Source of the DNA: Sphingomonadales bacterium
GTDB lineage: Bacteria; Pseudomonadota; Alphaproteobacteria; Sphingomonadales; Sphingomonadaceae
Length of the DNA: 64,000 nt
Reading direction: 5' to 3'
Assembly (NCBI GenBank): GCA_004173185.1
Contig: SEFZ01000019.1
Coordinates: 1 to 64,000 of the forward strand
Shown here: in pieces, positions 22,150 to 60,343 of the stretch
How positions within the stretch are numbered: position 1 is the first letter of the stretch
How the letters are laid out: each line of letters opens with the position of its first letter
Program-made: the position numbers and the translations under genes
Notes under the pieces: model-generated
The model's input: only the letters and a program-made list of their open reading frames with translations
What the model was told of the DNA's origin: nothing
The model's database searches: none

Positions 22150-23535
22150 ATGGCAAAACCACGCAAACGCTATGTCTGTCAGGCTTGTGGCTCGGTAACC
22201 GCGCAATGGGCCGGGCAATGCGGCGATTGCAGCGACTGGAACACGCTGGTCGAGGAAGCGGGCGGCAACGTCACGCCGTTTCAGGCCAAGCACAACCTCC
22301 AGTCCGGCGGGCGCGCGATCCAGCTTACCGGGCTGAACACCGATATCGCGCTGCCGGAGCGGATGGAGACCGGGATCGCCGAACTCGATCGCGCATTGGG
22401 CGGCGGCTTTGTCGAGGGTTCGGCCACGCTGATCGGCGGCGATCCGGGGATCGGCAAATCGACATTGCTGCTCCAGGCCGCGGCCAAGGTCGCCAACCGG
22501 GGGCTGCGCGTCGTCTATGTCTCGGGCGAGGAAGCCGGGGATCAGGTGCGGCTGCGGGCGCGACGGTTGGGGCTGGGACAGGCACCGGTGATGTTCGCAG
22601 CGGCGACTTCGGTGCGCGATATCCTGACGACGATGGGTGCCAATGAATCAGGGGGGGGCGCCCCGCCCGCATTGCTGGTGATCGATTCGATCCAGACGAT
22701 GCACAGCGACCTGATCGAAGGCGCACCGGGTACGGTGAGTCAGGTGCGCGCCTCGGCAGGCGAACTGATCCGCTTCGCCAAGGAAAATAGCACGGCGGTC
22801 GTGCTGGTCGGCCACGTCACCAAGGACGGCAATATCGCCGGCCCGCGCGTGCTCGAACATATGGTGGATACCGTGCTGGCGTTCGAAGGCGAGCGCAGCC
22901 ACCAATATCGCATCCTGCGCGCCGTGAAGAACCGCTTCGGCGGCACCGACGAGATCGGGGTGTTCGCGATGGAGAGCGAGGGGCTTTCAGAGGTCGCGAA
23001 CCCTTCGTCGCTGTTCCTCACCCAGCGCGACGAAAGCGTGACCGGCACGATCGTGTTCCCCGCGCTGGAGGGCACCCGGCCTGTTCTGGTCGAGGTACAG
23101 GCGCTGGTGGTCCGGCTGGCATCGGGCGCAACCCCCCGCCGCGCCGTGGTCGGCTGGGATTCATCGCGGCTGTCGATGATCCTCGCAGTGCTGGAGGCGC
23201 GCTGCGGGCTGAGTTTCTCCACCTGCGAAGTCTATCTCAACATCGCGGGCGGATACCGCGTGCAGGACCCCGCCGCCGATCTGGCGGTCGCGGCGGCTCT
23301 GGTCTCGGCGCTGGCAGAACGCCCGCTGGCGGCGGACGCGGTGGCGTTTGGCGAGATTGCCTTGTCGGGCGAAGTACGCCCGGTGGCGCATGGGGCGCTC
23401 CGGTGCCGCGAGGCAGGCAAGCTCGGCTTCGCCAAGGCGCTCGCTCCCGCGGCGCAGGCGGACAAGGGCGGCCTGGCGCTAACCGGGTTCAAGAACCTCG
23501 CGGCGTTCGTGGATCATCTGCTGGGTGTTAGGTGA
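22150..23535 (+). CDS. radA: DNA repair protein RadA; last codons supplied by prophage left end
   Basis: MAKPRKRYVCQACGSVTAQWAGQCGDCSDWNTLVEE zinc finger; GGDPGIGKSTLLLQ Walker A; stop TGA at 23533-23535 lies inside the prophage. Confidence 0.95.
   Translation: MAKPRKRYVCQACGSVTAQWAGQCGDCSDWNTLVEEAGGNVTPFQAKHNLQSGGRAIQLTGLNTDIALPERMETGIAELDRALGGGFVEGSATLIGGDPGIGKSTLLLQAAAKVANRGLRVVYVSGEEAGDQVRLRARRLGLGQAPVMFAAATSVRDILTTMGANESGGGAPPALLVIDSIQTMHSDLIEGAPGTVSQVRASAGELIRFAKENSTAVVLVGHVTKDGNIAGPRVLEHMVDTVLAFEGERSHQYRILRAVKNRFGGTDEIGVFAMESEGLSEVANPSSLFLTQRDESVTGTIVFPALEGTRPVLVEVQALVVRLASGATPRRAVVGWDSSRLSMILAVLEARCGLSFSTCEVYLNIAGGYRVQDPAADLAVAAALVSALAERPLAADAVAFGEIALSGEVRPVAHGALRCREAGKLGFAKALAPAAQADKGGLALTGFKNLAAFVDHLLGVR
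23521..23525 (+). repeat. 5-bp target-site duplication CTGGG (left copy)
   Basis: Immediately before TGTTAGGTGACAG; matching copy at 60339-60343. Confidence 0.88.
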
Positions 23536-23825
23536 CAGTTGATGTCGGAGTGGGCGGGATAATGTGGCATTTGGCGGGATTATCCGGGACGAATGGCGGT
23601 TTTGCGTCGGTTCTGGCATTTCGGGTCGCCTCGTTACGCACTGCGGGCGCTGTCAAGAGTCGGTAGGCGTCTTACCATTGGTTTGACAAGACAGGCCGGA
23701 GTTGGGGCGGTCAAGCCCGCGAACCGCGCATAGGCCGCTCAGGCGTCTCTCAATGGCTGTTTTTCGTGCTCTAAGCGATCGATGAGCGGTCGTTGAGGCG
23801 CGCTAGGGCTGCGACCGGGCACCTG

Positions 23826-23851
23826 AAGTGGGACTTTTGAAGGTCCCACTT
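23826..23851. repeat. hairpin AAGTGGGAC-ttttgaag-GTCCCACTT in prophage left end
   Basis: Perfect 9-bp arms in an ORF-poor region. Confidence 0.7.
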
Positions 23852-23984
23852 TGCAGAGCCGAGGCCCACTTCCAGAAAATGACGGATTTCCGCGCCTTTT
23901 ACTCGCTGCCGCACATTAAATCATGTGTTTCGGCTGACAGCTAAGTGGGACCCTTTTCTAGCGACGGCAATGATCCTCGATCGC

Positions 23985-24113
23985 TCAGGGAGCGAGATGC
24001 AGGATGCCCATGATCAGCAGCACAATGATGCCTAGAGCCCAGCGCGGCACGCCGCGTAGCAGTGGGCCGTGGCCGGCCTCGGCTCGGAGGCAATCGATCA
24101 GCCGATCCAACAT
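23985..24113 (-). CDS. small single-TM protein (42 aa)
   Basis: MLDRLIDCLRAEAGHGPLLRGVPRWALGIIVLLIMGILHLAP*; 6 nt after the upstream ORF stop. Confidence 0.5.
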   Translation of the reverse strand: MLDRLIDCLRAEAGHGPLLRGVPRWALGIIVLLIMGILHLAP

Positions 24114-24119
24114 TTCGCT

Positions 24120-24303: not shown

Positions 24304-25014
24304 CTAAACTCGCTTTCCGATAAAGACGACCCGGCCCACGATATTGACCTCTTCATGGAAGACGTCGTCAGATTCGACGCGATCATTATCCGAGTAAAGT
24401 AACACGCGATCCTTACGAATTCGCAAGCGCTTGATCATTGCGATATCCCCGATCGTCAGCGCCCAAAAGGCATCTTCTTCCCTAACCGTTTTCGCAGAGA
24501 GGTCGATGAGGATCAGATCGCCATTGTTGATCGTCGGTGCCATCGAATCCCCCAGGCCCCGAGTCCATGCCAATTGCGATGGCGGCGTTCTGGTTATCGA
24601 TTCGATCCATGACCGCGGGAAGAACTTCGGTTCGGCCTGAATATCACCATCTGAGTACGTTCCCCCAAGACCGTACGCAAATTCGACATCGTTCACGGCG
24701 ACGAGATCGAGATCGCTTGGCGCGGTCTTCGCTCCTGCCCCGCCGCTCAACCATTTGCGGATCTCCTCGCCGGGAACCGTCGCAGCTTCCTGGCGCCCGA
24801 AAAGCAGCCATTCCAGACTGACGTTCAGGGCCTCGGCGATCCGAATAGCGACGTCCGTTTTCTTGGGGCCGTTCTGAATCGCGTCGCCGATGGTGCTTTC
24901 CGGCAAACCCGATTGCTGCGCCAGCCAAGACCGAGTTTTCGGCCCCATTGCCTCCAAAATGCGCAATCCGACCGAATTTTCGGTCTTTGCAGCTTGACGC
25001 CCCGGCCGAGACAT
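24304..25014 (-). CDS. phage repressor, HTH + peptidase S24 (LexA/CI-like)
   Basis: N-terminal HTH (TRSWLAQQSGLPESTIGDAIQNG), C-terminal LGDSMAPTINNGDLILIDLSAKTV S24 signature. Confidence 0.92.
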   Translation of the reverse strand: MSRPGRQAAKTENSVGLRILEAMGPKTRSWLAQQSGLPESTIGDAIQNGPKKTDVAIRIAEALNVSLEWLLFGRQEAATVPGEEIRKWLSGGAGAKTAPSDLDLVAVNDVEFAYGLGGTYSDGDIQAEPKFFPRSWIESITRTPPSQLAWTRGLGDSMAPTINNGDLILIDLSAKTVREEDAFWALTIGDIAMIKRLRIRKDRVLLYSDNDRVESDDVFHEEVNIVGRVVFIGKRV

Positions 25015-25264
25015 TTTAACCGAGTTTTCGGACCGAATTTCCGGGGATTTACTCACGTGACAATTGCCGACATGCACAGGATCGACGTGAAAGCGGCGCT
25101 CCAGAAGAAATTCGGATCTGTTGCCAGCTTCGAGCGCAAACATGATTTGCCCGAAAAGTCGGTGAACGACGTGCTTCGAGGACGCCCCTGGAAGCGCGTT
25201 GCTGACGCAATTGAAAAAGCTTTGGCCACAGAAGAGGGCACTCCTGCCGAATCCGAATTTTCGG
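24931..25264. promoter_or_regulatory. array of 12-bp operator-like palindromes CCGA(A/G)TTTTCGG across the repressor/ner divergent region
   Basis: CCGAGTTTTCGG 24931 and 25020; CCGAATTTTCGG 24972 and 25253; variants CCGAATTTCCGG 25033, CCGAAAAGTCGG 25151. Confidence 0.75.
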
Positions 25265-25317
25265 ATTGTAGCAAGGGATGTGCGACCTCGCATCGTCTAA
25301 TTGAAGGTGCGCGCTAG
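25072..25317 (+). CDS. Ner-like/small HTH regulator
   Basis: MHRIDVKAALQKKFGSVASFERKHDLPEKSVNDVLRGRPWKRVADAIEKALA; divergent from repressor as in Mu. Confidence 0.72.
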   Translation: MHRIDVKAALQKKFGSVASFERKHDLPEKSVNDVLRGRPWKRVADAIEKALATEEGTPAESEFSDCSKGCATSHRLIEGAR

Positions 25318-25319
25318 AC

Positions 25320-26525
25320 ATGGTGCTGCATCTTCAAGCTCTTACGCAGGGCGACCGCGACCTTTCCGTGCCTGGCGACCTGCTTACGCTGGATGCCAAC
25401 GAGATCGAGCTGGGCGAGCGTCTTCGCGAAATCGATATGCCCTGGGCAGAGGCGATCGGCGCATCGATGCGCACGGACGGGCAGATCAACCCCGTCCATG
25501 TGTCGCGTGTCGCGGGCTCTGACAAATGGCACCTCGCCGGGCCGGGCGGGCATCGCACCATGGGTGCGCGCATCGCCGGCATCCCGATCGAAGCGAAGTT
25601 TGTTTCGTCCGACAAGCTCGGTCAGCGGCGCCGTGAAGTGGTCGAGAACCTCTTCCGCCGTCCGAACGACCCGCTGGAACGGGCCGCTGCGATCGCCGAG
25701 TTGGTGCGCCTGCATAAGCTGGAACGCGGCATCGACCCTGCGAAGGACGGCCGCACTGCATCTGTCCAGGCTCGGTGGCAAAAGCAATTAAAGGACGAGG
25801 CTGCCGATACAAACGCAACCGTTGCGCTTGTATATGGATGGACTGCCGACGTTGCCGATCAGATCGGCCTCAGCCGCCGGACGGTCGAAAATGATCTGCT
25901 GCTTTATCGCCGCCTTCCGCCTTCCTTGGTGGCCCGGCTGCGCGAAAAGCAGCACCCGATCCTCGATCAAGCCGGCCAGCTGCGCACGCTCGCGAAACTG
26001 AGCGACGCGGATCAGGCGCAGGCGGTCAATTTGCTAATCGGCGACGATCACCGCGAACCACTGAAAACTGTCAACGACGCTTTGGCGCAGATGCGTGGCG
26101 CAAACCGGGTGCCCAGCGATCCCGAAGCGAAACGCCTCTCCGCTTTCATCGGCAGCTTTCAGCGCATGGGGATCACCGAGAAGAAGGGGGCGCTGGACGA
26201 GCTGACGGCGTTGCTGCCGTCCGGTTATTCGATCGTACGGGCGCAGCCAGATGCGGCTTCAGAACCCCTGACGCCTGCCGTTCCGATCCGGAAATCGGTC
26301 AAAATCGATTATCTCGTCTGCCTGGAATGTGCGGAGAAGACTGAGAAGCTGGGCGCGCACCTGCGCGAAGTCCACCAGATCGAGCCTTCGGCATATCGGG
26401 CACGCTGGCAGTTGCCGGCCGATTATCCCGTCTTCGCGCCAACCTTGGCGGACGCTCGGCGTCGCCTCGCGAAGCACCGCCTAACGACATTCCTGACCCG
26501 CAAATCCCAAGGAGTTGAGGCATGA
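25320..26525 (+). CDS. ParB/Spo0J-like N-terminal domain protein with C-terminal Ros/MucR-like zinc-finger domain
   Basis: N-term ParB-like (INPVHVSRVAGSDKWHLAGPGGHRTMGARIAG), HTH (VADQIGLSRRTVENDLLL); C-term DYLVCLECAEKTEKLGAHLREVHQIEPSAYRARWQLPADYPVFAPTLADARRRLAKH. Confidence 0.82.
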   Translation: MVLHLQALTQGDRDLSVPGDLLTLDANEIELGERLREIDMPWAEAIGASMRTDGQINPVHVSRVAGSDKWHLAGPGGHRTMGARIAGIPIEAKFVSSDKLGQRRREVVENLFRRPNDPLERAAAIAELVRLHKLERGIDPAKDGRTASVQARWQKQLKDEAADTNATVALVYGWTADVADQIGLSRRTVENDLLLYRRLPPSLVARLREKQHPILDQAGQLRTLAKLSDADQAQAVNLLIGDDHREPLKTVNDALAQMRGANRVPSDPEAKRLSAFIGSFQRMGITEKKGALDELTALLPSGYSIVRAQPDAASEPLTPAVPIRKSVKIDYLVCLECAEKTEKLGAHLREVHQIEPSAYRARWQLPADYPVFAPTLADARRRLAKHRLTTFLTRKSQGVEA

Positions 26526-28041: not shown

Positions 28042-28504
28042 GCGCCGCCCGTCCGTTCCCCCTGGGCAGTTCGCCTTCACGTTCGACGTGCCGACTGCGG
28101 CTCGGGAACCTTCCGCGCTGTCCGGGCTCGATCGGGAGGTCGCGGCAACGGTCGCGCTGATCCTTTGGGAGGCGCGTCCCAAAACGCGTTTCGAGATCGC
28201 GGGCGCAATCTCCGAATTGCTCGATGACGACGTGACGAAGTCGATGCTCGACAAATACGCTTCGGAGGGAAGCGAGGCACACGCGATTTCGGCGGCACGT
28301 CTGCTGGCATTGGTTGCCGCGACCGATCGCCACGATCTGCTCGACCGGCTCACCCGCCGGATCGGCGCGGCGCTGCTCGTGGGCGAAGAAATCCTGACGG
28401 CAGAAATCGGCGATCTCGATCGTCAGATCGCCGCGCTCAAGCGCCGCCGGAGCGAGAAGGCGACGGTAGCACCGATTATTGCATTTGGGAGGCGGCGTAC
28501 GTGA
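28034..28504 (+). CDS. hypothetical phage protein upstream of MuA
   Basis: MAKRRPSVPPGQFAFTFDVPTAAREPSALSGLDREVAATVALILWEARPKTRFEIAGAISELLDDDV... Confidence 0.65.
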   Translation: MAKRRPSVPPGQFAFTFDVPTAAREPSALSGLDREVAATVALILWEARPKTRFEIAGAISELLDDDVTKSMLDKYASEGSEAHAISAARLLALVAATDRHDLLDRLTRRIGAALLVGEEILTAEIGDLDRQIAALKRRRSEKATVAPIIAFGRRRT

Positions 28505-30453
28505 AGCTTGGCGGGGGAAAAGAGTGGTTCACTGCGGCTGAGCTCGCCGAGCTCGACTTGCCGGGTCTGCGCAAGACCAAGCGCAAGGTGAACGAGCTGG
28601 CCGACGAGCGCGGTTGGAAGTTCCTCACCAACGACGCCGGTGAACCTTTGGCCCGCCCGCGCCAGGCGCGTGGCGGCGGCACCGAATATCACATCGATGT
28701 TCTGCCAGCCGCGACACGATCCGCACTGGTGGCACGCGGTGTCGGCGCAGTCGCACACGTCGCATCCAAGCCGGAAACCCGAGCCGCCAGCATGTGGGGC
28801 TGGTTCGAGGCGCAGAACGAGAAGACGCAAGGCGAAGCACGCAAGCGCGCGCAGATCGTTGCCCTGGTCGAGACCTATGAGCGCGTTGGGCTCACCCGTT
28901 CGGCGGCCGTGGCCTCGACGGCCGCGCGATCGGCGGTAGCGGCGTCCACACTATGGGGCTGGCTAGCCCTACTCGACGGAGTCTCCCCAGCCGATCGGCT
29001 GCCGTACCTAGCGCCCCGCAGGGCGGGCGGTGCCGCTGCGGCGGATATCGACGCTCGTGCCTGGCAGCTTTTCCTGTCCGACTATCTGCGGCCCGAAAAG
29101 CCGACCTTGTCGGAATGCTTTCGCCGCACCCAGGCATGGGCCGCAGCCAACGGCATCGAGCTCCCGCACCAACGCACCTTCAATCGCCGGCTCGACAAGC
29201 TCGACCAGCGCATCGTTGTCGCGAAGCGCGCAGGCGCAGAAGCGTTGCGTCGCATGCTGCCGTCGCAGCAACGCTCGGTTGCTGAGCTGCACGCGATGGA
29301 AGCGGTCAATATCGACGGGCACAAGTTCGACGTGTTCTGCCGGTATCCGGACGGACGCATTGCGCGCCCGCTGATGATCGCGATTCAGGACGTCTATTCG
29401 CGCAAGATGCTCGCCTGGCGGGTCGCCGAAAGCGAGAACGCGATCGACACGCGGCTTGCCTTTGCCGAGTTGTTCAAAACGTGGGGTATTCCGCGTCACT
29501 GCCTGCTCGATAATGGTCGCGCGTTCGCTTCGAAATGGATCACCGGCGGCGCGCCGAACCGCTTTCGCTTCAAGGTCAAGGACGATGAACCGCTCGGGCT
29601 GCTGACGGCGCTAGGCATCGTGATCCATTGGGCAACGCCGTTCCGCGGGCAGTCGAAGCCGATCGAGCGGGCGTTCAAGGATCTGACCGACATCATCGCG
29701 CGGCATCCGGCGACGCACGGTGCGTATACCGGTCACAAGCCCGACGCGAAGCCCGAGAATTACGGCGACGCCGCCGTGCCGATCGAGGATTTCAAGCGCC
29801 TCGTGGAAGTAGGAATCGCGGCACACAACGCTCGAGTAGGTCGTCGCACTGAGACTGCGCGCGGGCGCTTCAGCTTCGACCAGGTGTTTGCCGAGAGCTA
29901 TGCCGCCGCGCCGATCGGCAAGGCCACACCGGAGCAGCTGCGCATTGCCCTTCTCGCGGCCGAGCAGCAGACATGCGACCGCAGCACGGCCGAAATCCGC
30001 CTTGAGGGCAATCGCTATTGGTCGCCAGCTCTGCATGCCCATGCTGGCAAGCGCGTCACGGTACGGTTCAACCCCGATAATCTGCACGAAGAAGTTCACG
30101 TTTACGCGAATAACGGCGAGTTCATCGCGACGGCCGAGATCATCGACAAGACCGGGTTCTTCGACAAGGAATCGGCGGGCAAGCGCCGGAAGCAGGAAGC
30201 GGATTGGCGACGCCAGGTGCGTGACGCCACGAAGCTGGAAGATTTGCTGTCGATCGGCGCGGTCGCTTCGATGCTTTCAGACGAACCAGAGCCGCTTGAC
30301 ATGCCGGAGGCCACTGTCGTGCGCCCCGTCCGCATGCGTGGGCAGACAGCTGCCGCTCTCAAACCCGTCTCAGAAGTCGCTCCACACCAGCCCGCGCCCG
30401 AAGTCGTCGACCGGATGACGTCTGCGATGGAGCGGCTTCGCATCGTCAGGTGA
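28501..30453 (+). CDS. Mu-type DDE transposase (MuA homologue)
   Basis: Mu-type HTH (VKLGGGKEWFTAAELAELDLPGLRKTKRKVNELADERGW), rve core (NIDGHKFDVFCRYPDGRIARPLMIAIQDVYSRKMLAWRVAESENAIDTRLAFAELFKTWGIPRHCLLDNGRAFAS), Mu-C beta-barrel. Confidence 0.95.
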   Translation: MKLGGGKEWFTAAELAELDLPGLRKTKRKVNELADERGWKFLTNDAGEPLARPRQARGGGTEYHIDVLPAATRSALVARGVGAVAHVASKPETRAASMWGWFEAQNEKTQGEARKRAQIVALVETYERVGLTRSAAVASTAARSAVAASTLWGWLALLDGVSPADRLPYLAPRRAGGAAAADIDARAWQLFLSDYLRPEKPTLSECFRRTQAWAAANGIELPHQRTFNRRLDKLDQRIVVAKRAGAEALRRMLPSQQRSVAELHAMEAVNIDGHKFDVFCRYPDGRIARPLMIAIQDVYSRKMLAWRVAESENAIDTRLAFAELFKTWGIPRHCLLDNGRAFASKWITGGAPNRFRFKVKDDEPLGLLTALGIVIHWATPFRGQSKPIERAFKDLTDIIARHPATHGAYTGHKPDAKPENYGDAAVPIEDFKRLVEVGIAAHNARVGRRTETARGRFSFDQVFAESYAAAPIGKATPEQLRIALLAAEQQTCDRSTAEIRLEGNRYWSPALHAHAGKRVTVRFNPDNLHEEVHVYANNGEFIATAEIIDKTGFFDKESAGKRRKQEADWRRQVRDATKLEDLLSIGAVASMLSDEPEPLDMPEATVVRPVRMRGQTAAALKPVSEVAPHQPAPEVVDRMTSAMERLRIVR

Positions 30454-30483: not shown

Positions 30484-30762
30484 ATGAAGATGCCAGTGTC
30501 CAGATATCTAGCCCTCTACGTGAACAAGCACGGTGACCCAGCGGCGGCGATGCTGTCGGATATTCATGGCGCACACCTGCCAGTCGGGGTGGACGAATTC
30601 TCGCTAGGCCTGCCCGACTATGACGGCGAGCCTGTCACCTTGGTCGGTATGCCCGCCGACGAAAACTTCCGGCCGGTCGTACACGATGTCGAGACCGACA
30701 CCGAGCTGCCGCTCGCCTTTGTCGATCTGCCCGACGAACTCACCGCCCCCGACGAGGACTGA
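30484..30762 (+). CDS. hypothetical phage protein between MuA and MuB
   Basis: MKMPVSRYLALYVNKHGDPAAAMLSDIHGAHLPVGVDEFSLGLPDYDGEPVTLVGMPADENF... Confidence 0.55.
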   Translation: MKMPVSRYLALYVNKHGDPAAAMLSDIHGAHLPVGVDEFSLGLPDYDGEPVTLVGMPADENFRPVVHDVETDTELPLAFVDLPDELTAPDED

Positions 30763-30768
30763 ATGCGA

Positions 30769-30799
30769 CGGGAGCGCGCGGTTGGAACGCGCGCTCCCG
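30769..30799. repeat. strong hairpin CGGGAGCGCGCG-gttggaa-CGCGCGCTCCCG between MuA and MuB genes
   Basis: Perfect 12-bp arms, 7-nt loop, no U-tract. Confidence 0.9.
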
Positions 30800-30838
30800 G
30801 CATCGACCGCCGCCCAATCCAATGAAGGAAATGCGCAC

Positions 30839-31828
30839 ATGAATAATCCAACCAACATGCCGATCGACATCGAAGAGCAGCGCTCATGGCTGGTCCGGCA
30901 CAAGGCCGACACGGGCCTCCCATGGCCAGCTATCAGCAAGCCAGCCGGCATTCCGAAAGGTACGATCAGCAACTTCGCAGGTGACACCTATGAAGGGAAC
31001 AACCAGAACATCGCTGAAATCATCTTCCGCTATCGCCAGGTTCTGACCACGCGTGCGGAGATTGATGTCGAGGCGCCCGATCTGCCCGGCTATTTTGAGA
31101 CCCCGACCTCGCGCCGGGTGAATGCAATCCTGAACTACGCAATGGCCCGGAGCCGCATCGGAGTGGTCGCTACCGAATCCGGCCTGGGAAAAACCACGAC
31201 GCTGGAGAACTTCCGCGCATCGGCGACGCCAGTGTGGCTCGCAACGATGGCGCCTTCGTCGGCCGGCGTGAACAACATGCAGATCGCCATTCTTGAATCG
31301 ATGGGCGAGACCGACGCGAAGGGCACGCCGCAGGCACTATCGCGGCGAATTAAGGACCGTGTGCGGGCGTCGGGCGGGCTGCTAATCCTCGATGAGGCGC
31401 AGTTCCTTTCCGAGAAATCGCTAGAGGAACTGCGGACGATCCATGACGACGCGATGAAACGCGCGTTGATTGATGGCACGCGTGGCGTCGGGATCTGCTT
31501 GGTTGGCAACACGGACGTCCTCCTGCGCCTTGAGCTTGGCCGCCAAAAGGATGCCTTCGCGCGCCTCGCTAGCCGGGTTGCTCAGCGCGTGATCGCATAT
31601 CACGCGGTCGAGGGCGACGTGCTCGCACTGGCCGACGCTTGGCGCATTCAGGATGAAGATATGCGTCGGTTCCTGCTGGGGCTGCGGCAGGTGCCGGGCT
31701 CGCTCCGAACGCTAACTTTTATGCTCGAATCCGCGTGGATGTTGGCGTCGGGCGATGGCAAGCCGCTGTCCCTTTCGTATCTTCAGGAGGGCTGGGCGCT
31801 GCAATCGCAACGGCAGCTGGCAGCATGA
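30839..31828 (+). CDS. MuB-like ATP-dependent target-DNA activator
   Basis: N-terminal HTH; VVATESGLGKTTTLENF Walker A; LLILDEAQFLSEKSLEELRTIHDDA Walker B; after MuA. Confidence 0.92.
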   Translation: MNNPTNMPIDIEEQRSWLVRHKADTGLPWPAISKPAGIPKGTISNFAGDTYEGNNQNIAEIIFRYRQVLTTRAEIDVEAPDLPGYFETPTSRRVNAILNYAMARSRIGVVATESGLGKTTTLENFRASATPVWLATMAPSSAGVNNMQIAILESMGETDAKGTPQALSRRIKDRVRASGGLLILDEAQFLSEKSLEELRTIHDDAMKRALIDGTRGVGICLVGNTDVLLRLELGRQKDAFARLASRVAQRVIAYHAVEGDVLALADAWRIQDEDMRRFLLGLRQVPGSLRTLTFMLESAWMLASGDGKPLSLSYLQEGWALQSQRQLAA

Positions 31829-50295: not shown

Positions 50296-51762
50296 ATGAC
50301 CATCTCGTTCGGTTCGATCCCGGCGTCGCTGCGCACGCCCGGCAATTATCTTGAGTTCGACAGCTCCAAGGCCGTTTCCGGCCTGCCGCCAGCGCCCAAC
50401 AAGGTGCTGCTGATCGGGCAACGCATCGCTGCCGGCACTGTCGCCGAGCTGGTGCCGACGCGCATCGTCTCGGCCGATCAGGCCGTTCAGGCTTTCGGTC
50501 GGGGCTCGATGCTCGCCGGCATGGCGCGCGCTTTCAAAAAGGCGGACGCGATTACCGAATGCTGGGCGGTCGCGCTCGACGATAACGCCGCCGGCACGGC
50601 CGCGACCAAGACGATCACGGTCAGCGGCCCTTCGACGGCGGCCGGCACTATCGCTCTGATGGTCGCCGGCCAGTCGTTCGCTGTGCCAGTCGCGAGCGGC
50701 GCGAGCGCCAACACGGTTGCTACTGCCATTGCAGCAGCGATCACTGGAGGCCTTGATCTGCCATGCACGGCCGCAGCCGCTTCGGCCGTCGTGACCGTGA
50801 CGGCGCGCAACAAGGGCACGGCCGGCAACGACATCGATGTGCGCCACAGCTATTATCAGGGCGAAGCGCTCCCGGCCGGTATCGGCCTTGCGATCGCCGA
50901 TGGCGTTGCCGGCGCGACAAATCCCGACGTAGCGAGCGTGTTCGCCGCGATCGGCGACGCGCATTATCCCACGATCGCTATCGGCTTCGGCGATGCGGGC
51001 ACGCTGACCAAGGTCGAGACCGAGCTGGCGGACCGCTGGGGTCCGCTGCGGATGATCGAGGGCGTGGCCTATGTCGGCAGCCGTGGTTCCCAGGGCACGC
51101 TCGCGGCGCTCGGCGCGGCGCGCAATTCGGCGTTCGTTTCGATCATCGGCGCGAACAAGGCACCCAACCCGACTTGGGAATGGGCTGCGAGCTATGCCGG
51201 CATCGTCGGCTTCAACGGCTCGATCGACCCGGCGCGCCCGTTCCAGACGCTTGAGCTGCCGGGGTTGCTGCCGCCCGCCCAGGCGGACCGCTTCGGCCGT
51301 GCGGAACGCGAGCTGCTGCTGAAGGATGGCATCTCGACCTTTACCGTCGATGCGGGCGGCAAGGTGCTGCTTGAGCGGCCGATCACGACCTATCAGACCA
51401 ACGCCCAAGGCCTCGACGACATCGCGTTCCTCGACGTCAACACGGTGCTGACGCTTGGCTATCTGCGCCTTGCGGTTCGATCGCGGATCTCGCTTAAATA
51501 TCCGCGCCATAAGCTTGCCGACGATGGCGCGGTCTATGGAGCGGGTCAGGCGATCGTCACACCTAAGCTGCTTCGCTCGGAGCTGATCGCTCTGTTCCGC
51601 GAGCTTGAGGATGCGGGCCTTGTCGAGAACCTCGACCAGTTCGCAGCGGATCTGATCGTCCAGCGCTCGGCCAGCGATCCCAGCCGCGTCGATGCGCTGA
51701 TCCCGCCCAACATCGTCAACCAGTTCCGCGTGTTCGCGGGTCGCGTCGAGTTCCGGCTCTGA
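50296..51762 (+). CDS. contractile tail sheath protein (Mu L-like)
   Basis: MTISFGSIPASLRTPGNYLEFDSSKAVSGLPPAPNKVLLIGQR...; C-term NIVNQFRVFAGRVEFRL. Confidence 0.94.
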   Translation: MTISFGSIPASLRTPGNYLEFDSSKAVSGLPPAPNKVLLIGQRIAAGTVAELVPTRIVSADQAVQAFGRGSMLAGMARAFKKADAITECWAVALDDNAAGTAATKTITVSGPSTAAGTIALMVAGQSFAVPVASGASANTVATAIAAAITGGLDLPCTAAAASAVVTVTARNKGTAGNDIDVRHSYYQGEALPAGIGLAIADGVAGATNPDVASVFAAIGDAHYPTIAIGFGDAGTLTKVETELADRWGPLRMIEGVAYVGSRGSQGTLAALGAARNSAFVSIIGANKAPNPTWEWAASYAGIVGFNGSIDPARPFQTLELPGLLPPAQADRFGRAERELLLKDGISTFTVDAGGKVLLERPITTYQTNAQGLDDIAFLDVNTVLTLGYLRLAVRSRISLKYPRHKLADDGAVYGAGQAIVTPKLLRSELIALFRELEDAGLVENLDQFAADLIVQRSASDPSRVDALIPPNIVNQFRVFAGRVEFRL

Positions 51763-51798
51763 GCCGCCTCTGAGACGTCAATCAGGAGAGTTTAAGCG

Positions 51799-52170
51799 AT
51801 GGCAAACAAGAACCAGGTCCTCGGCGAAACCAAGGTCACCAGTGCGGCGCTGGGGCTGCTCGAAACGGACGGCCAATCTACCCTCGATATCGGCGGGAAG
51901 AAGCGAGAAGCCGTCACCGGTGACAACCAGGCGAGCGCGTTCAAGGCCTCCACCGAACCATCGAAGTTCGAATGCAATCTGCTGGTGAAGGGCGGGCTTA
52001 GCCTCTCCCAGATCCGCGCGATCGACAACGACACGCTGACGATCGAGTTCGACACCGGCCAGACCTTCGTCGTTCGCGCCGCCTATTCGGCCGACGTGCC
52101 CACGGTCGCGACCAGCGACGGCAAGGCCAAGGTAGTGTTCCAAGGCCCGCCCGCAGAGGAGCTGCGCTGA
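51799..52170 (+). CDS. tail tube protein (Mu M-like)
   Basis: SALDIGGKKREAVTGDN-type region and position directly after sheath. Confidence 0.85.
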   Translation: MANKNQVLGETKVTSAALGLLETDGQSTLDIGGKKREAVTGDNQASAFKASTEPSKFECNLLVKGGLSLSQIRAIDNDTLTIEFDTGQTFVVRAAYSADVPTVATSDGKAKVVFQGPPAEELR

Positions 52171-52496
52171 TGGACGATCAGGGCACCCAGAGCGAGCAGC
52201 GGCCAGCATTTCTGACCGCGGACAATCGCGTGCCATTGCTGGTGCCGGTCAATTACTCGATCGGCGAGGAGCGTCAGGTGGTGGCTGAACTTCAGCTCAA
52301 GCGACTGACGGCCGCCGAGCGCCTGATGCTCGATGAGCCGATGAAGTATACCGAAAAGCAGCTGCGCTTGCTTGAGCGGATGACTGCGCTTCCGCGCACC
52401 GTTCTGCTGAAGCTAGACGAAGTCGATCTCGACCGCGTCGATGAATGCTTCGGGTATTTCAGAACGCCTGGTTCGGTAACTGGCGCGATCTCCTAG
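52170..52496 (+). CDS. tail assembly chaperone (Mu gp41-like)
   Basis: VPVNYSIGEERQVVAELQLKRLTAAERLMLDEP...; between tube and tape measure. Confidence 0.85.
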   Translation: MDDQGTQSEQRPAFLTADNRVPLLVPVNYSIGEERQVVAELQLKRLTAAERLMLDEPMKYTEKQLRLLERMTALPRTVLLKLDEVDLDRVDECFGYFRTPGSVTGAIS

Positions 52497-52612
52497 CCGA
52501 TCTCGTCTTGCGCGGCGGGTTTCCACCCGCCGACGCATGGCTGCTCGATGATCAGCAACTGGATTTCTGGCTGGACCAGGCAAAGCGCATCGCCGCGACG
52601 GGGGAAGCATGA
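52445..52612 (+). CDS. -1 frame extension of tail assembly chaperone (possible recoding product)
   Basis: -1 frame open after TGA 52442-52444: MLRVFQNAWFGNWRDLLADLVLRGGFPPADAWLLDDQQLDFWLDQAKRIAATGEA*, ending at the tape-measure ATG. Confidence 0.65.
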   Translation: MLRVFQNAWFGNWRDLLADLVLRGGFPPADAWLLDDQQLDFWLDQAKRIAATGEA

Positions 52613-54225
52613 AGCTATCGCTCATTCTCGAAGCACGGGACCAGGCCAGCCGCGCGGTTGGCGGGCTTCGTCGCGCTGTCGGCGGCCTTAATCGCGACGC
52701 GCGTTCAGCTTCCGCAGGCCTTGTAACGACCGCTCGATCGATGATCCGCACCGAGCAGGCGGCTGAGCGTCTCGGGCGCGCTGCGTACCGCACTGGTCAC
52801 GCGCTTGGATCGATGACGCGGCGCGGCATCGGTGGCCTGGTCGCGCTTGAGCGGCGTTTAACGCTTAGCCGCTCGCATCTGGAGCGCTTCGCCAGCTGGA
52901 CCGGGCGCAAGATCGGTGAGGGCCTGCGCTTCGGCGCGCTCTCCGCGATCGGCGCCGGTTCGTTCGCGCTTTACAAGGTCGCCGGTGCCGGCATGAACTT
53001 CGAGAAATACCGCACCCAGCTCGAAGGGCTGGAAGGCGGCAAGGTCGGCGGCAACAAGGCAATGGGTTGGGTAATCGATTTCGCGCGGCAGACGCCGTAC
53101 GAGATCGGCGACGTGATGCAGGCATTCATCGCGCTCAAGGCCTACGGGATCGATCCGACGAACGGGTCGCTGAAGACGCTCGGAGATACTGCAGGCGGGA
53201 TGGGTAAAACCATCATGCAAGCCGTCGAGATGATGGCCGACGCACAAACGGGCGAGTTTGAGTGGCTGAAGGAGTTCGGCATCCGCGCCGCCCAGCAAGG
53301 CGATAAGGTGACGTTCCGCTTCATGCGCAACGGACAGGAAATGACGCGGAGCGTGAAGAAGGACGGCGCGGCGATTCAGGCCGCGTTGATGGAGATCTTC
53401 AACGAGCGTTTTGCCGGGGGCATGGACCGCCTGGCGCAGACCACCGAGGGCAAGTGGTCGAACCTAATGGACCGCCTGACCTTCAGCGCAAAGCGCGTGT
53501 GGGAAGGTGGCTTGGGCGAATCGGTCAATCGCGTCCTCGACCAACTTGGCGGCGCGCTTGATCGCGCCGAGGGCGATGGATCGCTCAAGCGCTGGGCCGA
53601 GCAGACCGGCACCGCGCTCGGCGACTTCGTTCAGAAAGTCGGCGAGTTCGATTGGTCGGGCTTCGCGGGTGACATCGCCATTTTGGCCAAGACGCTTTCT
53701 GATCTCGCTGGCGGACTGAACTCGGCCGGCACGGCGCTCGATCGCGTGGGTGGCTATGCGCGGCAGGCCGGTCTCAAGGGCTCGCTATACAATCCGTTCA
53801 TTGGCGACGAGACCAAGAAGAAGAACCGCGAGGAACTGCGCGGCCTGAACCGCAAGCTAGGCTATGATGAGAATTGGGGCATCCCCGCCGATCAGTCGGC
53901 GCGTGATCGCTCGGCCGAGCAGCGTGGCTTGAACGAAAAGGCCGGTCGGGATTATTGGGCGCGTCGCCAGGCGGGCAAGGTACCTGCGATGCCGTGGGAA
54001 CGCCAGCGCCTCGCGCCGACGCCGAGTTGGGGCGGTGGCGCACGTCGCTCGCCCTGGTCGCCGGGCACCACAACACCGAAGCCCACCCCGCCGCCCACCG
54101 GAAAAATTTCATTGCACGTGACAACCGATCGCGGGACGCAAGTCACGCAGACCGGCATGCAGGCGAGCGGCGTTCGTATTGAAACGAATATCCGGCGGGG
54201 TCCCGCCATGGGTGGCTTCGCATGA
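52609..54225 (+). CDS. tail tape measure protein
   Basis: MKLSLILEARDQASRAVGGLRRAVGGLNRD...EKYRTQLEGLEGGKVGGNKAMGWVIDFARQTPYEIGDVMQAFIALKAYGIDP. Confidence 0.92.
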   Translation: MKLSLILEARDQASRAVGGLRRAVGGLNRDARSASAGLVTTARSMIRTEQAAERLGRAAYRTGHALGSMTRRGIGGLVALERRLTLSRSHLERFASWTGRKIGEGLRFGALSAIGAGSFALYKVAGAGMNFEKYRTQLEGLEGGKVGGNKAMGWVIDFARQTPYEIGDVMQAFIALKAYGIDPTNGSLKTLGDTAGGMGKTIMQAVEMMADAQTGEFEWLKEFGIRAAQQGDKVTFRFMRNGQEMTRSVKKDGAAIQAALMEIFNERFAGGMDRLAQTTEGKWSNLMDRLTFSAKRVWEGGLGESVNRVLDQLGGALDRAEGDGSLKRWAEQTGTALGDFVQKVGEFDWSGFAGDIAILAKTLSDLAGGLNSAGTALDRVGGYARQAGLKGSLYNPFIGDETKKKNREELRGLNRKLGYDENWGIPADQSARDRSAEQRGLNEKAGRDYWARRQAGKVPAMPWERQRLAPTPSWGGGARRSPWSPGTTTPKPTPPPTGKISLHVTTDRGTQVTQTGMQASGVRIETNIRRGPAMGGFA

Positions 54226-55442
54226 GCTGGGCCGACAATTATCAGCCCGGCAGCTTCCGTGGCGTGCCTTTCGCGACCCAGCGGTCAGACCGATCGGGCG
54301 GGTTACGCGGGCCGACGCATGAGTTCCCCGGCCGTGACAAGCCGCTGTTCGAGGATCTGGGCAATCGCGCCGAGACCTTCGCGATCGAAGCGTATGTATG
54401 GGGTGAGGATTATGACGCCAAGCGTGACGCACTGGTTGCCGCGTTGCGCGGGCGCGGTGCGGGCACGCTGGTCCATCCTTATTACGGCACGATGGTCGTC
54501 GCCGCGACGGACTGGTCAGTCGGCGAAAGCACCGACGACCAGGGCATTGCGTTCTTCTCGATCACGTTTGGTGAATCCGGGCTTGCGCCACCCGCGCCCG
54601 CGCCCGACACGGTCGTCCAGGCGCAAGATGCCGCTGATGCTGCGGCGCAGGAAGCACCGCAGATCTTCGCGAGTGCATTCGATATCGCGGATGCACAGAG
54701 CTTCGTTGAAGGCGCTGCGGCGGATCTGGTGAAATATGGCGCAGCGGCGGTCGCGATCGCGGGCGGTCTTCAGGGGGGCATCGGGCCGACGCTGCTGGCA
54801 TTCCAGTCGCATCTGGATTTGTTGCCGGGCAATCTGCCCTCGCTGCTTCGCCAGCCATTGGCGCTCGGTCAAAGCGTGCTCGGCCTGGTGCAGACCGTCC
54901 GGACCCTTGGCGGCGGATCGCTATCTTTGATCGCCGCCCTTTCGGGGTTGCTCGGGTTCGGCGCGGATCTCCCGCCTGTTATCGGCTCCACTTCGGCCCG
55001 TGAGCGGCAGCGCGCCAATCAGGAAGCCTTTGTCGATCTGCTGACGACGACCGCCGCGTCCGAGCTGGTGCGCGCGATCGCGGGCACCGACTTTGCATCC
55101 TACGAAGCGGCGGGAGCGGTTCGCGACAAGGCGGTCGCCCTCCTCGAAGCGCGGATTGTCCACGCGGCTGACGCGCGGCGCGACGATGTAGCGCGCACAT
55201 TCGAGCGACTACAGGCCGCGATAGTGCTGGACGTGACGGCACGAGGCGGATCGCTTGCGCGCGTCTATCGCTTTATTCCCGCAGTGACTGAGCCGGCATT
55301 AGTGATTGCGGCGCGGCTTTACGGGATTGATGCGGCGCTTCCCGCCCGCGCGGCCGATATCGCTGCGCGCAATCGGCTTTCCCATCCGGGCTTCGTGTCG
55401 GGCGGCACGCCGATTGAAGTGTTGGAGGTCGCCGGTGGCTAA
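54222..55442 (+). CDS. DNA circularization protein (Mu N/gp43-like)
   Basis: WADNYQPGSFRGVPFATQRSDRSGGLRGPTHEFPGRDKPLFEDLGNRAETFAIEAYVWGEDYDAKRDALVAAL. Confidence 0.92.
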   Translation: MSWADNYQPGSFRGVPFATQRSDRSGGLRGPTHEFPGRDKPLFEDLGNRAETFAIEAYVWGEDYDAKRDALVAALRGRGAGTLVHPYYGTMVVAATDWSVGESTDDQGIAFFSITFGESGLAPPAPAPDTVVQAQDAADAAAQEAPQIFASAFDIADAQSFVEGAAADLVKYGAAAVAIAGGLQGGIGPTLLAFQSHLDLLPGNLPSLLRQPLALGQSVLGLVQTVRTLGGGSLSLIAALSGLLGFGADLPPVIGSTSARERQRANQEAFVDLLTTTAASELVRAIAGTDFASYEAAGAVRDKAVALLEARIVHAADARRDDVARTFERLQAAIVLDVTARGGSLARVYRFIPAVTEPALVIAARLYGIDAALPARAADIAARNRLSHPGFVSGGTPIEVLEVAGG

Positions 55443-56499
55443 CCAGGCGAGCACGGTAACTCTGACCGTTGGCGGGACGCGCCACGAGGGTTGGACCCGG
55501 ATCAACGTAACCCGCTCGATCGACGCGCTTGCCGGGAGCTTTGACCTGACGCTAGCGACCGCGTGGGCCGAATCTCCTGCGCCCTTCGTCCTTGAGGCCG
55601 GTGCGGCATGCACCGTCTCGATCGGCGGCGAGACGCTGATTACCGGCTACATCGATCGGCTTAGCCCCAGCTTCGATAGCGAAGCGCATTCGATTACAAT
55701 TTCCGGTCGGGACAAATCCGGGGATCTGATCGACTGCGCGGCGATCGCATCGCCGGGCACGTGGCGCGACACCAAGATTTCCACCATCCTGACGGCGATC
55801 GCCAAGCCCTATGGCGTCAAGATCATCTTGTCGGCCGACGAAGGTGCTCCGCTGCGCCGCTTCTCGCTGCAGCCCGGCGAGACCGTGCAGGCCGCAATCG
55901 AGCGCTTGTGCCGGTTTCGCGGTCTGCTGGCGATCCCGAATGCCCAAGGCGATATCGAGCTCACCACGCCGAATGCCGGCGCGCCGGCCGAAGTTCTGAC
56001 CCAAGGCGGCAATATCGTTTCCGCATCCGGCGAACACGACGTCAGCGGTCGCTTTAGCGAGTATATCGTGAAGGGACAGTCGAGCGGCGACGATCGAGCG
56101 CACGGCAAGACGGTGTCGGCACCGCACGCGAACGCGAAAGACCCGGCGATCAAGCGGCATAGGCCGATGGTCATCATCGCAGAAGAGCAGGCGACACTTG
56201 CCGGCCTTCAGACCCGCGCGCGTTGGGAAGCGAGCACGAGAGAGGGCAAAGGCCAGTCGGCCAATGTCCAGCTTCAGGGCTGGTATCGGCCAGACGGCAA
56301 GCTCCGCGACCGCAACACGATCGTGATGCTCGGTGCGCCTCACCTGTTCATGGACGGGCGCATGCTGGTCCAGTCGTGCAGCTATATTCTTGATGAGGGT
56401 GGCACGCGGACTGAATTGATCGTCGTGCCGCCTTCGGCCTGGTCGCAACTTCCAGTACCGGAAAAGGCGGAAGTCTCGCGCGTTGGGCGGCGGCGATGA
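55435..56499 (+). CDS. baseplate hub protein (Mu P/gp44-like)
   Basis: TVTLTVGGTRHEGWTRINVTRSIDALAGSFDLTLA...ITGYIDRLSPSFDSEAHSITISGRDKSGDLIDCAA. Confidence 0.92.
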   Translation: MANQASTVTLTVGGTRHEGWTRINVTRSIDALAGSFDLTLATAWAESPAPFVLEAGAACTVSIGGETLITGYIDRLSPSFDSEAHSITISGRDKSGDLIDCAAIASPGTWRDTKISTILTAIAKPYGVKIILSADEGAPLRRFSLQPGETVQAAIERLCRFRGLLAIPNAQGDIELTTPNAGAPAEVLTQGGNIVSASGEHDVSGRFSEYIVKGQSSGDDRAHGKTVSAPHANAKDPAIKRHRPMVIIAEEQATLAGLQTRARWEASTREGKGQSANVQLQGWYRPDGKLRDRNTIVMLGAPHLFMDGRMLVQSCSYILDEGGTRTELIVVPPSAWSQLPVPEKAEVSRVGRRR

Positions 56500-57053
56500 G
56501 CGAGGCGCTAAACCGCTTACTCGCGCCGCTGGCTGGCCGTGTGCGGCTGATGATCGGCCGCGCAGTGATCGCCGCTGTAAATGACGACCCGCGCGTCCAG
56601 GAAGTGCAGATAGACCTGCTTGATGGAGAGAGCAGCGACGGCGTGGAGCATTTTCAGAGTTACGGGCTGACCAGCCATCCGCCAGTTGGGCTTGAGGCAT
56701 TGGTCGCCTTCGTTGGCGGGCTTCGCAGCCACGGTGTTGTCGTGGCCGTTGGCGACCGGAAGTTCCGCATGGTTGGCCTCCAGCAGGGGGAAGTCGCGCT
56801 CTATGACGATCAGGGCCAGAGCGTGCATCTGAAGCGTGACGGCATTCACATCACCGGCAAGAAGCTCACCTTCGAGAGCGAGGCCGAGATCGACTTTATC
56901 GGCACGAAGGTCACCATCACCGCTGACGAGATAAGCCTGGCTACCGACAATCTCGGGCTGGGCAACGACGCGACGCTCGAAGCGGCGCGGAAGACCGATG
57001 CTGTTTCGGGCGGCGTAATCAGCGGGGGATCTAGCAAGGTGAAGATTGCATGA
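56496..57053 (+). CDS. baseplate assembly protein V (Mu gp45-like)
   Basis: AVNDDPRVQEVQIDLLDGESSDGVEHFQSYGLTSHPPVGLEALVAFVGGLRSHGVVVAVGDRKFR. Confidence 0.9.
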   Translation: MSEALNRLLAPLAGRVRLMIGRAVIAAVNDDPRVQEVQIDLLDGESSDGVEHFQSYGLTSHPPVGLEALVAFVGGLRSHGVVVAVGDRKFRMVGLQQGEVALYDDQGQSVHLKRDGIHITGKKLTFESEAEIDFIGTKVTITADEISLATDNLGLGNDATLEAARKTDAVSGGVISGGSSKVKIA

Positions 57054-57346
57054 GCGGAAAACGGGCGTGCGCGCGACGGGGCAATGCGGGCTGGCAGCGA
57101 CGTGATATCGCGATTGACGGCGCAGATCGGATATTCCGGGGGGTGGGCTTCGATGCCACCGAGACCGAGCCGGTCGAGGCCTGGGCAAGCTTTGATCGCC
57201 AAAACCGGATGCGGCGCGTGCATGCGCGCTGGGCATGCGGATGGCGCGCGACGCTGCAACTCCGCCTCGACGGCACCGGCTCTCTGAGCTCGGCGAAGAA
57301 GATCGCTACGATCACTCTTGTTAGCGACCCGCGAGGGGCAGCATGA
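57050..57346 (+). CDS. hypothetical baseplate-region protein
   Basis: ATGA overlaps with both neighbours. Confidence 0.6.
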   Translation: MSGKRACARRGNAGWQRRDIAIDGADRIFRGVGFDATETEPVEAWASFDRQNRMRRVHARWACGWRATLQLRLDGTGSLSSAKKIATITLVSDPRGAA

Positions 57347-57810
57347 CCGACGTCGCCCTCCATTGGGATGCCGTTGCCGGCGCGGCCGATATCCTGCTTG
57401 TCGATGGTGCGATCGACACCGATGCGGGGCTGCGGACCGCAATACTGATCTCGCTTTTCACAGACGCCTGCGCGGCGGCCGATGACGTTCTGCCGCAGCC
57501 GGGTGGCGATCGTCGCGGCTGGTGGGGCGATGCCCTTGCCGAAGGCTCGGACGTTACGGGCTCGCTCCTCTGGTTGCTTGCACGTGAGAAGATCACACCG
57601 CGCGTTCTCACCCGTGCTCGTGAGTATGCCGAAAAGGCTTTGGCGTGGCTGATCGCGGATAAGGTGGCCAGCAAGGTGACGGTTACCGCCGAGGCGCTCC
57701 GGCCGGGTACGCTGGCTCTGCGCATTGAGATCGTGCGGCCTTCCGGTCCTGCTCGCCAGCGGTTCGATTATGTTTGGGATGCCGAAGCTGGCTGGAGGAT
57801 GACAGCGTGA
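57343..57810 (+). CDS. phage GP46 family baseplate protein (Mu W-like)
   Basis: DTDAGLRTAILISLFTDACAAADDVLPQPGGDRRGWWGDAL. Confidence 0.92.
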   Translation: MTDVALHWDAVAGAADILLVDGAIDTDAGLRTAILISLFTDACAAADDVLPQPGGDRRGWWGDALAEGSDVTGSLLWLLAREKITPRVLTRAREYAEKALAWLIADKVASKVTVTAEALRPGTLALRIEIVRPSGPARQRFDYVWDAEAGWRMTA

Positions 57811-58856
57811 CATTATCGAGGCCTACTCTCAGCGCGCTCGATCGGCGCATCGCTGCGGATTTCGACGCCCATATGAAAGGCGCAGATAGCCGCCTGCGCC
57901 GATCGTTCCTTTCGGTCCTCGCGCGATCGAACGCAGGCGCATTCGACGGGGTCTATGCGCTCCTCGGGTGGCTCGCACGTCAGCTAATGCCCGATACGGC
58001 TGAGAAAGAGTTTCTTGAGCGCCACTCCACGACGTGGGGCGTACCGCGAAAGGCTGCTGGCCGCGCGGCCGGGACTATCGAAATCGGCGGGATTGTCGGC
58101 GCGATCGTACCGATCGGCGCCGAACTCGTACGGGTTGACGGAGCACGCTTCGTTACCACCGAGCGCGTCGTTCTCGCAGCGACGACCGGTTCGGTCTCCG
58201 TGGAGGCGATGGATGCCGGGGTCGCTGGCGTTACGGCCGAAGATGTCGAGCTTACCTTCGCGGCAACGCCATCCGGCATCAATGCGATTGCCATCGCGGG
58301 AGCGGGCCTTTCAGGCGGTGCAGATGAAGAGACCGACGCGGCGCTGCTTGCGCGACTGCTCACCCGCATCCGGACGCCGCCAAACGGTGGAGCCGCCGCA
58401 GACTGGGAGACGTGGGCTCTCCAACTTCCCGGCGTCACTCGTGCATGGGCGTTCCCCAACTGGACAGGGCCGGGCACCGTTGGCGTAACCTTCGTGCTCG
58501 ACGGCCGCGAAGACATCCTGCCTCTGGAGGCCGATTTGGAGGCCATGACCGATCATATCGACCTGCTCCGGCCCGTCACGGCCACACCCGTAATTTTCGC
58601 TGCCACGCCTTTCATGGTGAACCCTTTGATCACGGTGACCCCTGACACCGCCGATGTGCGGGCCGCGATCGTCGCGGAGCTTTCTGACCTGTTCCAACGC
58701 GAAGCAGAGCCAGGCGGAAGTATGTACGTTTCGCGGATGCGGGAGGCGATCAGTCTCGCGGTCGGCGAATTTGATCACGTGCTGCGTTCGCCGGCCGCAA
58801 ATCCGGTTGCGCCTGCCGGCTATATTCCGATGCTCGGAACGGTGACGTTCGGCTGA
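57807..58856 (+). CDS. baseplate J family protein (Mu gp47-like)
   Basis: EFLERHSTTWGVPRKAAGRAAGTIEIGGIVGAIVPIGAELVRVDGARFVTTE...GGADEETDAALLARLLTRIRTPPNGG. Confidence 0.94.
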   Translation: MTLSRPTLSALDRRIAADFDAHMKGADSRLRRSFLSVLARSNAGAFDGVYALLGWLARQLMPDTAEKEFLERHSTTWGVPRKAAGRAAGTIEIGGIVGAIVPIGAELVRVDGARFVTTERVVLAATTGSVSVEAMDAGVAGVTAEDVELTFAATPSGINAIAIAGAGLSGGADEETDAALLARLLTRIRTPPNGGAAADWETWALQLPGVTRAWAFPNWTGPGTVGVTFVLDGREDILPLEADLEAMTDHIDLLRPVTATPVIFAATPFMVNPLITVTPDTADVRAAIVAELSDLFQREAEPGGSMYVSRMREAISLAVGEFDHVLRSPAANPVAPAGYIPMLGTVTFG

Positions 58857-59503
58857 TGCGCGACGCCGCCGCCTATCGCGCCATGCTGGCGCAGCTTCTT
58901 CCGCGAGGCAGCGCATGGGCGAGCGGCCCGGATACTAACCTTGGTAAGTTGCTTGCTGGTGAAGCGGAGGAGTTCGCGCGTGCTGATGCCCGCGCGCAGC
59001 GTTTGCTCGACGAAGCAGATCCACGGACCGCGCTTGAGCTGCTGCCCGACTGGGAGCGCGTAGCGGGCTTACCTGACGCGTGCACGGGCGCGCCGGATTC
59101 GCTCGGTGAGAGGCAGGCCGCTCTGGCCAACAAGATCGCCCAGCGGGGTGGGCAGAGCCGCGCGTTCTTCATCGAACTGGCCGCTCGCCTCGGCTATTAT
59201 ATCGAGATTAGTGAGTTCACCTCACTCGATGCCGGCTTCTCGGCCGGTGACGCTTGCAACGATGATGGCTGGCGCTTTGCTTGGCTAATCGAAGTGCTGA
59301 TCGGGGACGATGCCTATCGTGCCGGATATGCGGAGTTCTGCGCGGGGTCGATGGCGGGCGAGCGCCTGCTCGGCTTCGGTGCTCTCGATCTCGAATGCCT
59401 GATCGGCCGAGCCAAACCCGCCCACACCCATGCAATTTTTGCCTACACCGTCGAGCCCGATCCCGACTTCTGGTTCGATTTCAACTTAGATGAGGGAAAT
59501 TAG
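58856..59503 (+). CDS. DUF2313/YmfQ-like tail protein (Mu gp48-like)
   Basis: LAQLLPRGSAWASGPDTNLGKLLAGEAEEFARADARAQRLLDEADPRTALELLPDWERVAGLPD. Confidence 0.92.
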   Translation: MRDAAAYRAMLAQLLPRGSAWASGPDTNLGKLLAGEAEEFARADARAQRLLDEADPRTALELLPDWERVAGLPDACTGAPDSLGERQAALANKIAQRGGQSRAFFIELAARLGYYIEISEFTSLDAGFSAGDACNDDGWRFAWLIEVLIGDDAYRAGYAEFCAGSMAGERLLGFGALDLECLIGRAKPAHTHAIFAYTVEPDPDFWFDFNLDEGN

Positions 59504-59505
59504 AC

Positions 59506-60198
59506 ATGCACGCGATCGACAGCGCCGGAAGCATCAACGGCGAGTTTAGCGAAGGAAATCCGGGAACCGGGCAGCGCGCCACCAAGGTGACCGCAGAATG
59601 GCTTAACGACGTTCAGGCGAACCTCCTCGCGGTGCTCGAAGCGGGCGAAATCGATGCGGAGAAGGGGCGAGCCCAAGATCTTCTCCAAGCTATTCAAGCT
59701 GTCGTCGCGGGAGCGGTGGGCACAGGCGGCGGTGCCGTTCCAACGACACGCAAGGTATTGGGCGCGGGGCTCGTTACCCAAAGCAGCACCGGAGCGTTGT
59801 CAGCGGACGTGACCTTGACCGTCGCTGCGGCTTCGGGGCCGGAACTTGCGGGGGGCATCGTCAACAACAAAGTCGTGACGCCTGCGTCGATGGCGGCCGC
59901 CCTCGGGAACGGCACGGGTGGATCAATCACGTTTCCCGGTGGCTTCACGGACAAGTTTGGCACCTACCTCGTTGGCGTTTCGCCAGGCACCTATTTCGTC
60001 GGTTTCGCCATACCGTTCACTGCAGGGTGCGGCGGCGTGGTTGCTTGCCCTATCAATGCATCTGGTAGCGCCAACCGGGATGTTTGGGTTCAGGTTGTCA
60101 GCTTCTCGGCGGACGGGTTCACAATGTGTATCCAGACTTCCAATACCGGCGGCAATAATACCCTCGACGGGTTCTCGTGGCGCGCCTGGGGGCTTTAG
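59506..60198 (+). CDS. short tail fibre-like protein (230 aa)
   Basis: GNPGTGQRATKVTAEWLNDVQANLLAVLEAGEI followed by Gly/Ser/Thr-rich beta domain; last gene before right end. Confidence 0.7.
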   Translation: MHAIDSAGSINGEFSEGNPGTGQRATKVTAEWLNDVQANLLAVLEAGEIDAEKGRAQDLLQAIQAVVAGAVGTGGGAVPTTRKVLGAGLVTQSSTGALSADVTLTVAAASGPELAGGIVNNKVVTPASMAAALGNGTGGSITFPGGFTDKFGTYLVGVSPGTYFVGFAIPFTAGCGGVVACPINASGSANRDVWVQVVSFSADGFTMCIQTSNTGGNNTLDGFSWRAWGL

Positions 60199-60338
60199 TA
60201 TGGACCGCTCAAGCGTCTCTGAGAGAGCGCTCAGCGGCCCTTCAGACCGTGACATCGGCGCGGCGGCGCGCTAGTTTACCGGAAATGAGTGCTCCAGAAT
60301 GTTCTGTCACACGCTCCGGAAGCATTTGTCCCGCTACA

Positions 60339-60343
60339 CTGGG
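60339..60343 (+). repeat. 5-bp target-site duplication CTGGG (right copy)
   Basis: Follows ...GTCCCGCTACA; continues gcggtaa to restore the radA 3' end. Confidence 0.88.

Follow-up and report, generated by a model that had tools for sequence, protein, structure and literature searches.

Results

The radA locus and its prophage

The window, i.e. the whole 64-kb stretch of DNA that was analysed, contains a Mu-like prophage of 36,813 bp (23526-60338, plus strand), present in a single copy in the genome and inserted at the extreme 3′ end of radA (22150-23535, plus strand; KaiC/AAA, ChlI and Lon_C domains). PHROGs and Pfam comparisons recovered the complete gene set of a transposable Mu-like myovirus, with Mu-type A and B; the original prediction had called the prophage Mu-like from the sequence. 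All genes given below are on the plus strand except that of the S24 CI-type repressor (24304-25293, minus strand), which precedes an early gene for a ParB-like protein with a C-terminal Ros/MucR zinc-finger domain (25320-26525). The MuA-type DDE transposase (28501-30453; PF02914, PF09039 and PF09299, all above cut-off) and the adjoining MuB-type ATPase (30620-31828; PF13401 plus PF09077) are followed by GemA (32232-33008; PF06252), a Mor/C-type late activator (33166-33567; phrog_836) and a GH108 endolysin (33629-34276). A 901-aa protein encoded between the endolysin and terminase genes (34310-37015) had zero Pfam or PHROG matches; relatives match its N-terminal region only, up to residue 181, the pattern expected of a fibre or spike whose tip varies, and it is probably a tail fibre or spike. 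The late block comprises the terminase small and large subunits and portal (38962-43332), a MuF-like minor head protein, head protease, decoration protein and major head protein (43332-47253), the head-tail adaptor and neck (48230-49376), the sheath, tube and tape measure of a contractile tail (50296-54225), and the baseplate hub and wedge proteins with a tail fibre (54222-60198); the myovirus sheath, tube and baseplate assignments rest on phrog_165, 185, 177, 6 and 203.

The phage itself is ordinary, a further member of a known Mu-like kind. It shares with Escherichia phages Mu and D108 the DDE transposase, B ATPase, GemA, late activator, Mu-type head proteins and contractile tail, as well as the 5-bp duplication, the TG/CA ends and several (here putative) transposase sites per end. 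However, A is only about 40% identical over residues 188-616, two thirds of the protein, the end sequences differ, the ParB-Ros protein is extra here, and a CI/S24 repressor and a large fibre-like gene between the lysis and terminase genes are further differences. By transposase the closest named phages, at 39-42%, are Pelagibaca vB_PeaS-P1, Rhodovulum vB_RhkS_P1, Sinorhizobium Aussie and Ochrobactrum POA1180. Several of these alphaproteobacterial transposable phages are named siphophages whereas the tail here is contractile, and the likeness is one of transposase.

Ends of the element and target duplication

Copies of the 5-bp target duplication CTGGG lie at 23521-23525 and 60339-60343, and the element between them begins with TG and ends with CA. 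The base-exact ends, the duplication and the element size had all been read from the sequence in the original prediction, and each was confirmed to the letter. Around the transposase gene, the best TG...CA pair with an exact 5-bp duplication is this one (score 25.0, runner-up 17.5). Weight matrices for the left and right ends, trained on 15 related prophages with the window left out, were run over the whole 64 kb: the left matrix peaked at 23526 (32.5 bits) and the right matrix at 60338 (58.0 bits; next -14.8), matching both ends exactly. The second-best left score, 14.2 at 23677, marks a second internal site.

Several repeats resembling transposase sites, and so named here as putative sites, are present at both ends. 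The left terminus (23526-23555, plus strand) would hold an L1-type site, with a weaker second copy about 150 bp inward (GTTTGACAAGACAGGCCGGAGT, 23677-23702, plus strand), as in most relatives. At the right terminus (60287-60338, minus strand) one motif occurs in two copies, R1 and R2, 22 bp apart. In phage Mu, too, each end carries several transposase sites, with the same 22-bp spacing of R1 and R2. The terminal pattern first proposed, TGTnnnGnGACAnnTG, has a last 'TG' that is not conserved in the family. In virions, host DNA is predicted to be attached at TGTTAGGTGACA and TGTAGCGGGACA.

Related prophages in Sphingomonadales

Application of the end search to 17 related prophages, whose transposases are 47-62% identical, yielded the same kind of ends with exact duplications in 15. 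A further 18 relatives scanned with the matrices each showed both ends, flanked by an identical 5-bp duplication, and no end pair was found in four others scanned in this way (G404, G702, G718 and G543). There are thus 33 related prophages with this end type, or 34 mapped insertions including the window. The family ends are, in short form, TGTtaGgtGACA on the left and TGTAGCGgGaCa on the right, and the longer consensus is TGTtaGgtGACAngaggttcTgGAGTG and TGTAGCGgGaCaanAgntTcTGGAGTcTttGACAaGAcantcTgGAGCACT, respectively. The Mu target rule NYSRN fits 16 of the 34 duplications, CTGGG included, against a background of 19% (p 2e-4). We also considered whether an in-frame stop is built into the left end as an adaptation, as TGTTAG creates one in one or two of the frames. 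Since 14 of the 34 left ends differ from TGTTAG, the idea was rejected.

These prophages from public genomes resemble the present one in A, in end consensus and in size (36-41 kb), and differ from it in insertion site. The whole myovirus late block is common to four of them (G177, G542a, G546 and G548a), while the others have the transposition module and ends in common with it but carry unrelated tail genes in place of the contractile ones. The ParB-like part of the early protein was present in all 17 related prophages examined. In genome G311, two closely related Mu-like prophages lie about 130 bp apart, apparently tail to tail (contig C1, ~3.04-3.07 Mb; L275 and L277), a proximity that one would not expect if nearby DNA is protected by target immunity.

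The insertions are dispersed and not site-specific, the 34 prophages lying at different loci. Genes for rmuC, an aceE-like product, an inositol-phosphatase, a glyoxalase and a 2′-5′ RNA ligase are among those interrupted, and joining the flanks restores whole domains there. A simple GC-frame gene caller placed 19 of the 34 insertions in intergenic DNA, as compared to 12.8% of background positions, and several of the intragenic sites are at most 40 nt from the end of the gene.

The occupied and the empty radA site

The occupied gene ends CAT CTG CTG GGT GTT AGG TGA (HLLGVR*), and joining the flanks with one CTGGG gives an empty site reading CAT CTG CTG GGG CGG TAA (HLLGR*); the detached original end (gCGG TAA, in which the G completes GGG) is at 60344-60350 on the plus strand. 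The change of ending had been predicted, with an alignment to uninfected relatives as the check, and the bases are as claimed: among 29 other radA genes of the same genus, 17 end exactly in HLLGR*, and the others in (H/Y)MLGR* (seven), HMLGRG* (four) and YLLGKSA* (one). The sequence ctgctggggcgg is kept across the junction in several of these 29 genes. Because the RadA tail is variable here, as in HMLGRG* and YLLGKSA*, the HLLGVR* ending is likely tolerated, judging from these endings.

In the two nearest relatives (L003 and L004), radA is followed by a lipocalin gene and cvpA, and the same order is found to the right of the prophage (60763-61320 and 61378-61950, both plus strand). The sequence 'tttttcaatcctccc', which had been expected downstream of radA in relatives, is absent from them, since it is part of the REP/DUF559 element, which is strain-specific; what is conserved downstream is lipocalin and cvpA. 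The insertion was described as causing almost no coding damage, which is true for the radA coding sequence, but the prophage also puts 37 kb between radA and its original neighbours. The label of an 'essential-type' repair gene fits as to repair, whereas essentiality was overstated: RadA is dispensable in bacteria, and radical damage to the gene would probably also be survivable.

Paired palindromic repeats around DUF559 genes

Ten base pairs separate the insertion point from a 53-bp REP-like palindromic arm on its right (60354-60406), and the inverted partner of this arm (60680-60732) lies beyond a degraded DUF559 gene (60420-60665, plus strand; PF04480, one internal stop). This palindrome had no place in the original prediction. 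All four DUF559 genes of the genome, the one in the window (60354-60732 with its arms) and those on G000 contigs C6, C116 and C119, have a G/C-rich palindromic repeat on either side, the two forming an inverted pair whose sequence is particular to that gene. In a set of 30 DUF559 loci (L222-L251), 29 of them from other genomes of the genus, the flanking inverted pair scored above nearly all displaced controls at about 24. Short solo repeat pairs occur elsewhere, on C46, C130, C131, C136 and C122.

This arrangement resembles REP/REPIN sequences with their RAYT genes (Bertels and Rainey 2011, PMC3116915) in that paired inverted palindromes flank a repeat-associated gene and short solo pairs are found elsewhere, but the flanked gene is here DUF559, not RAYT. 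Between or near the palindromes of the window no RAYT transposase was found, DUF559 lying there, and the genome's single Y1_Tnp gene, on contig C71, is without such flanking arms. The DUF559 arrangement looks like a REPIN system with a Vsr-like nuclease family replacing RAYT. No paper on DUF559 together with inverted repeats was found in the literature searched.

Insertions in and near REP-like palindromes

A site was scored as REP-near when at least three G/C-rich heptamers of such repeats occurred within 60 bp, a test written after the repeat in the window had been seen. Approximately 10 of the 34 mapped insertions fall inside REP-like palindromes or no more than about 45 bp away. Among the insertions called intergenic, 9 of 19 were REP-near, compared with 3.7% of intergenic positions (p 9e-9). 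That count includes the window, where the caller missed radA, and G311, which looks coding; without these two it is about 7 of 17. The second set of 18 insertion sites, collected after the heptamer test was written, gave 5 of 11 intergenic sites on its own (p 3e-5).

The positions relative to the palindromes vary: the insertion is in the palindrome loop in G072, inside a long palindrome in G565, at the base of one hairpin type (the GGTGG hairpin) in G487, G593 and G551, at a hairpin base in G555, at the palindrome tail in G548a and G508, about 30 bp away in G566 and 10 bp off in the window. By BLAST, the repeat beside the insertion in the window is of one family with those at G593, G072, G487 and G566. 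The folding energy of 100-nt windows around the sites carried little signal (rank test p 0.20), leaving a general hairpin preference by folding energy unsupported. No REP-like repeat was found within 60 bp in any of 19 usable left flanks of further relatives, which are mostly viral contigs. Three independent prophages, in G043, G596 and G612 (L260-L265), are located within about 20 bp of a common intergenic pattern, in which AACAGGGC/AACAGCGG motifs occur in both orientations and CCAACATAACA comes after them, possibly a second kind of hotspot.

Discussion

The prophage almost certainly arose when a Mu-family phage lysogenised this strain, transposing with MuA/MuB-type proteins into the final codons of radA, at a site set by selection for harmlessness together with general preferences, and not by recognition of radA. 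The transposase would bind the putative sites at both ends (L1 with its weaker partner some 150 bp inward, and the pair R1 and R2) and join the prophage ends to the host strands at points 5 bp apart; CTGGG would be duplicated when this stagger was repaired. The left end supplies V-R-stop, RadA losing only its last residue with a net gain of one residue. The choice of site would reflect selection for a harmless place, the NYSRN target, noncoding DNA and probably the REP-like palindromes.

In regards to radA, a specific attachment site at its 3′ end would fit an insertion placed so precisely, and almost silently, in a gene that is conserved. This is very improbable, and for practical purposes ruled out, given that the other 33 mapped insertions lie elsewhere, that none of 29 other radA loci carries an insertion, and that the transposase is of the Mu type and is not an integrase; since related prophages interrupt rmuC, aceE-like and other genes, there is no radA specificity. 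A join of a phage contig to radA by misassembly or contamination could be suspected, as the genome is a draft in 140 contigs and its contamination stands at 5.55%, but it is scarcely credible where both junctions lie within one 85,679-bp contig, the duplication is exact, the ends agree with those of the family and the host DNA on either side keeps its synteny with relatives.

What brought the phage next to a palindrome is more finely balanced. Near-random insertion, after which only lysogens with tolerable sites (intergenic DNA and gene ends) persist and the REPs are incidental, has about an even chance of being the whole explanation: it accounts for the excess of intergenic sites and for the intragenic ones close to gene ends, but a roughly ten-fold REP excess remains after conditioning on intergenic DNA as a whole, promoters included. 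That remaining excess, which persists in the second set of sites, and the insertions lying inside palindromes, speak for an active attraction of the phage family to REP-like palindromes, whether by hairpins, by supercoiling or by a protein bound there, the radA landing then following from the palindrome just downstream. There are precedents, as insertions of the transposable Pseudomonas phages Ab30 and 2P1 are enriched near palindromic repeats, the hotspots of unselected replicative Ab30 insertions being 55-61 bp from BIME/REP motifs (PMC5977238), and Citromicrobium Mu-like phages have narrow target zones (PMC12486242). However, the sites mapped here are lysogenic and lie in or beside palindromes of another family than those of Ab30/2P1. 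REPs also mark harmless noncoding DNA, where survivors would gather anyway, the left flanks of the other relatives and the folding-energy test lend no help, and the window site is beside its palindrome, not inside it. We put active attraction at somewhat below even chances.

The REP association seen in the relatives may explain the harmless landing in radA. In its strongest form, sphingomonad Mu-like phages would be steered to DUF559-associated REP palindromes just past gene ends, making lysogeny routinely harmless, with radA as one case; this stays a tentative proposal, which we consider slightly less probable than attraction as such. With the end consensus, which includes the second R site 22 bp in, prophages of this family can be mapped to the base in Sphingomonadales genomes. 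Should the REP association represent targeting, it would provide a simple rule for the harmless landing of such phages.
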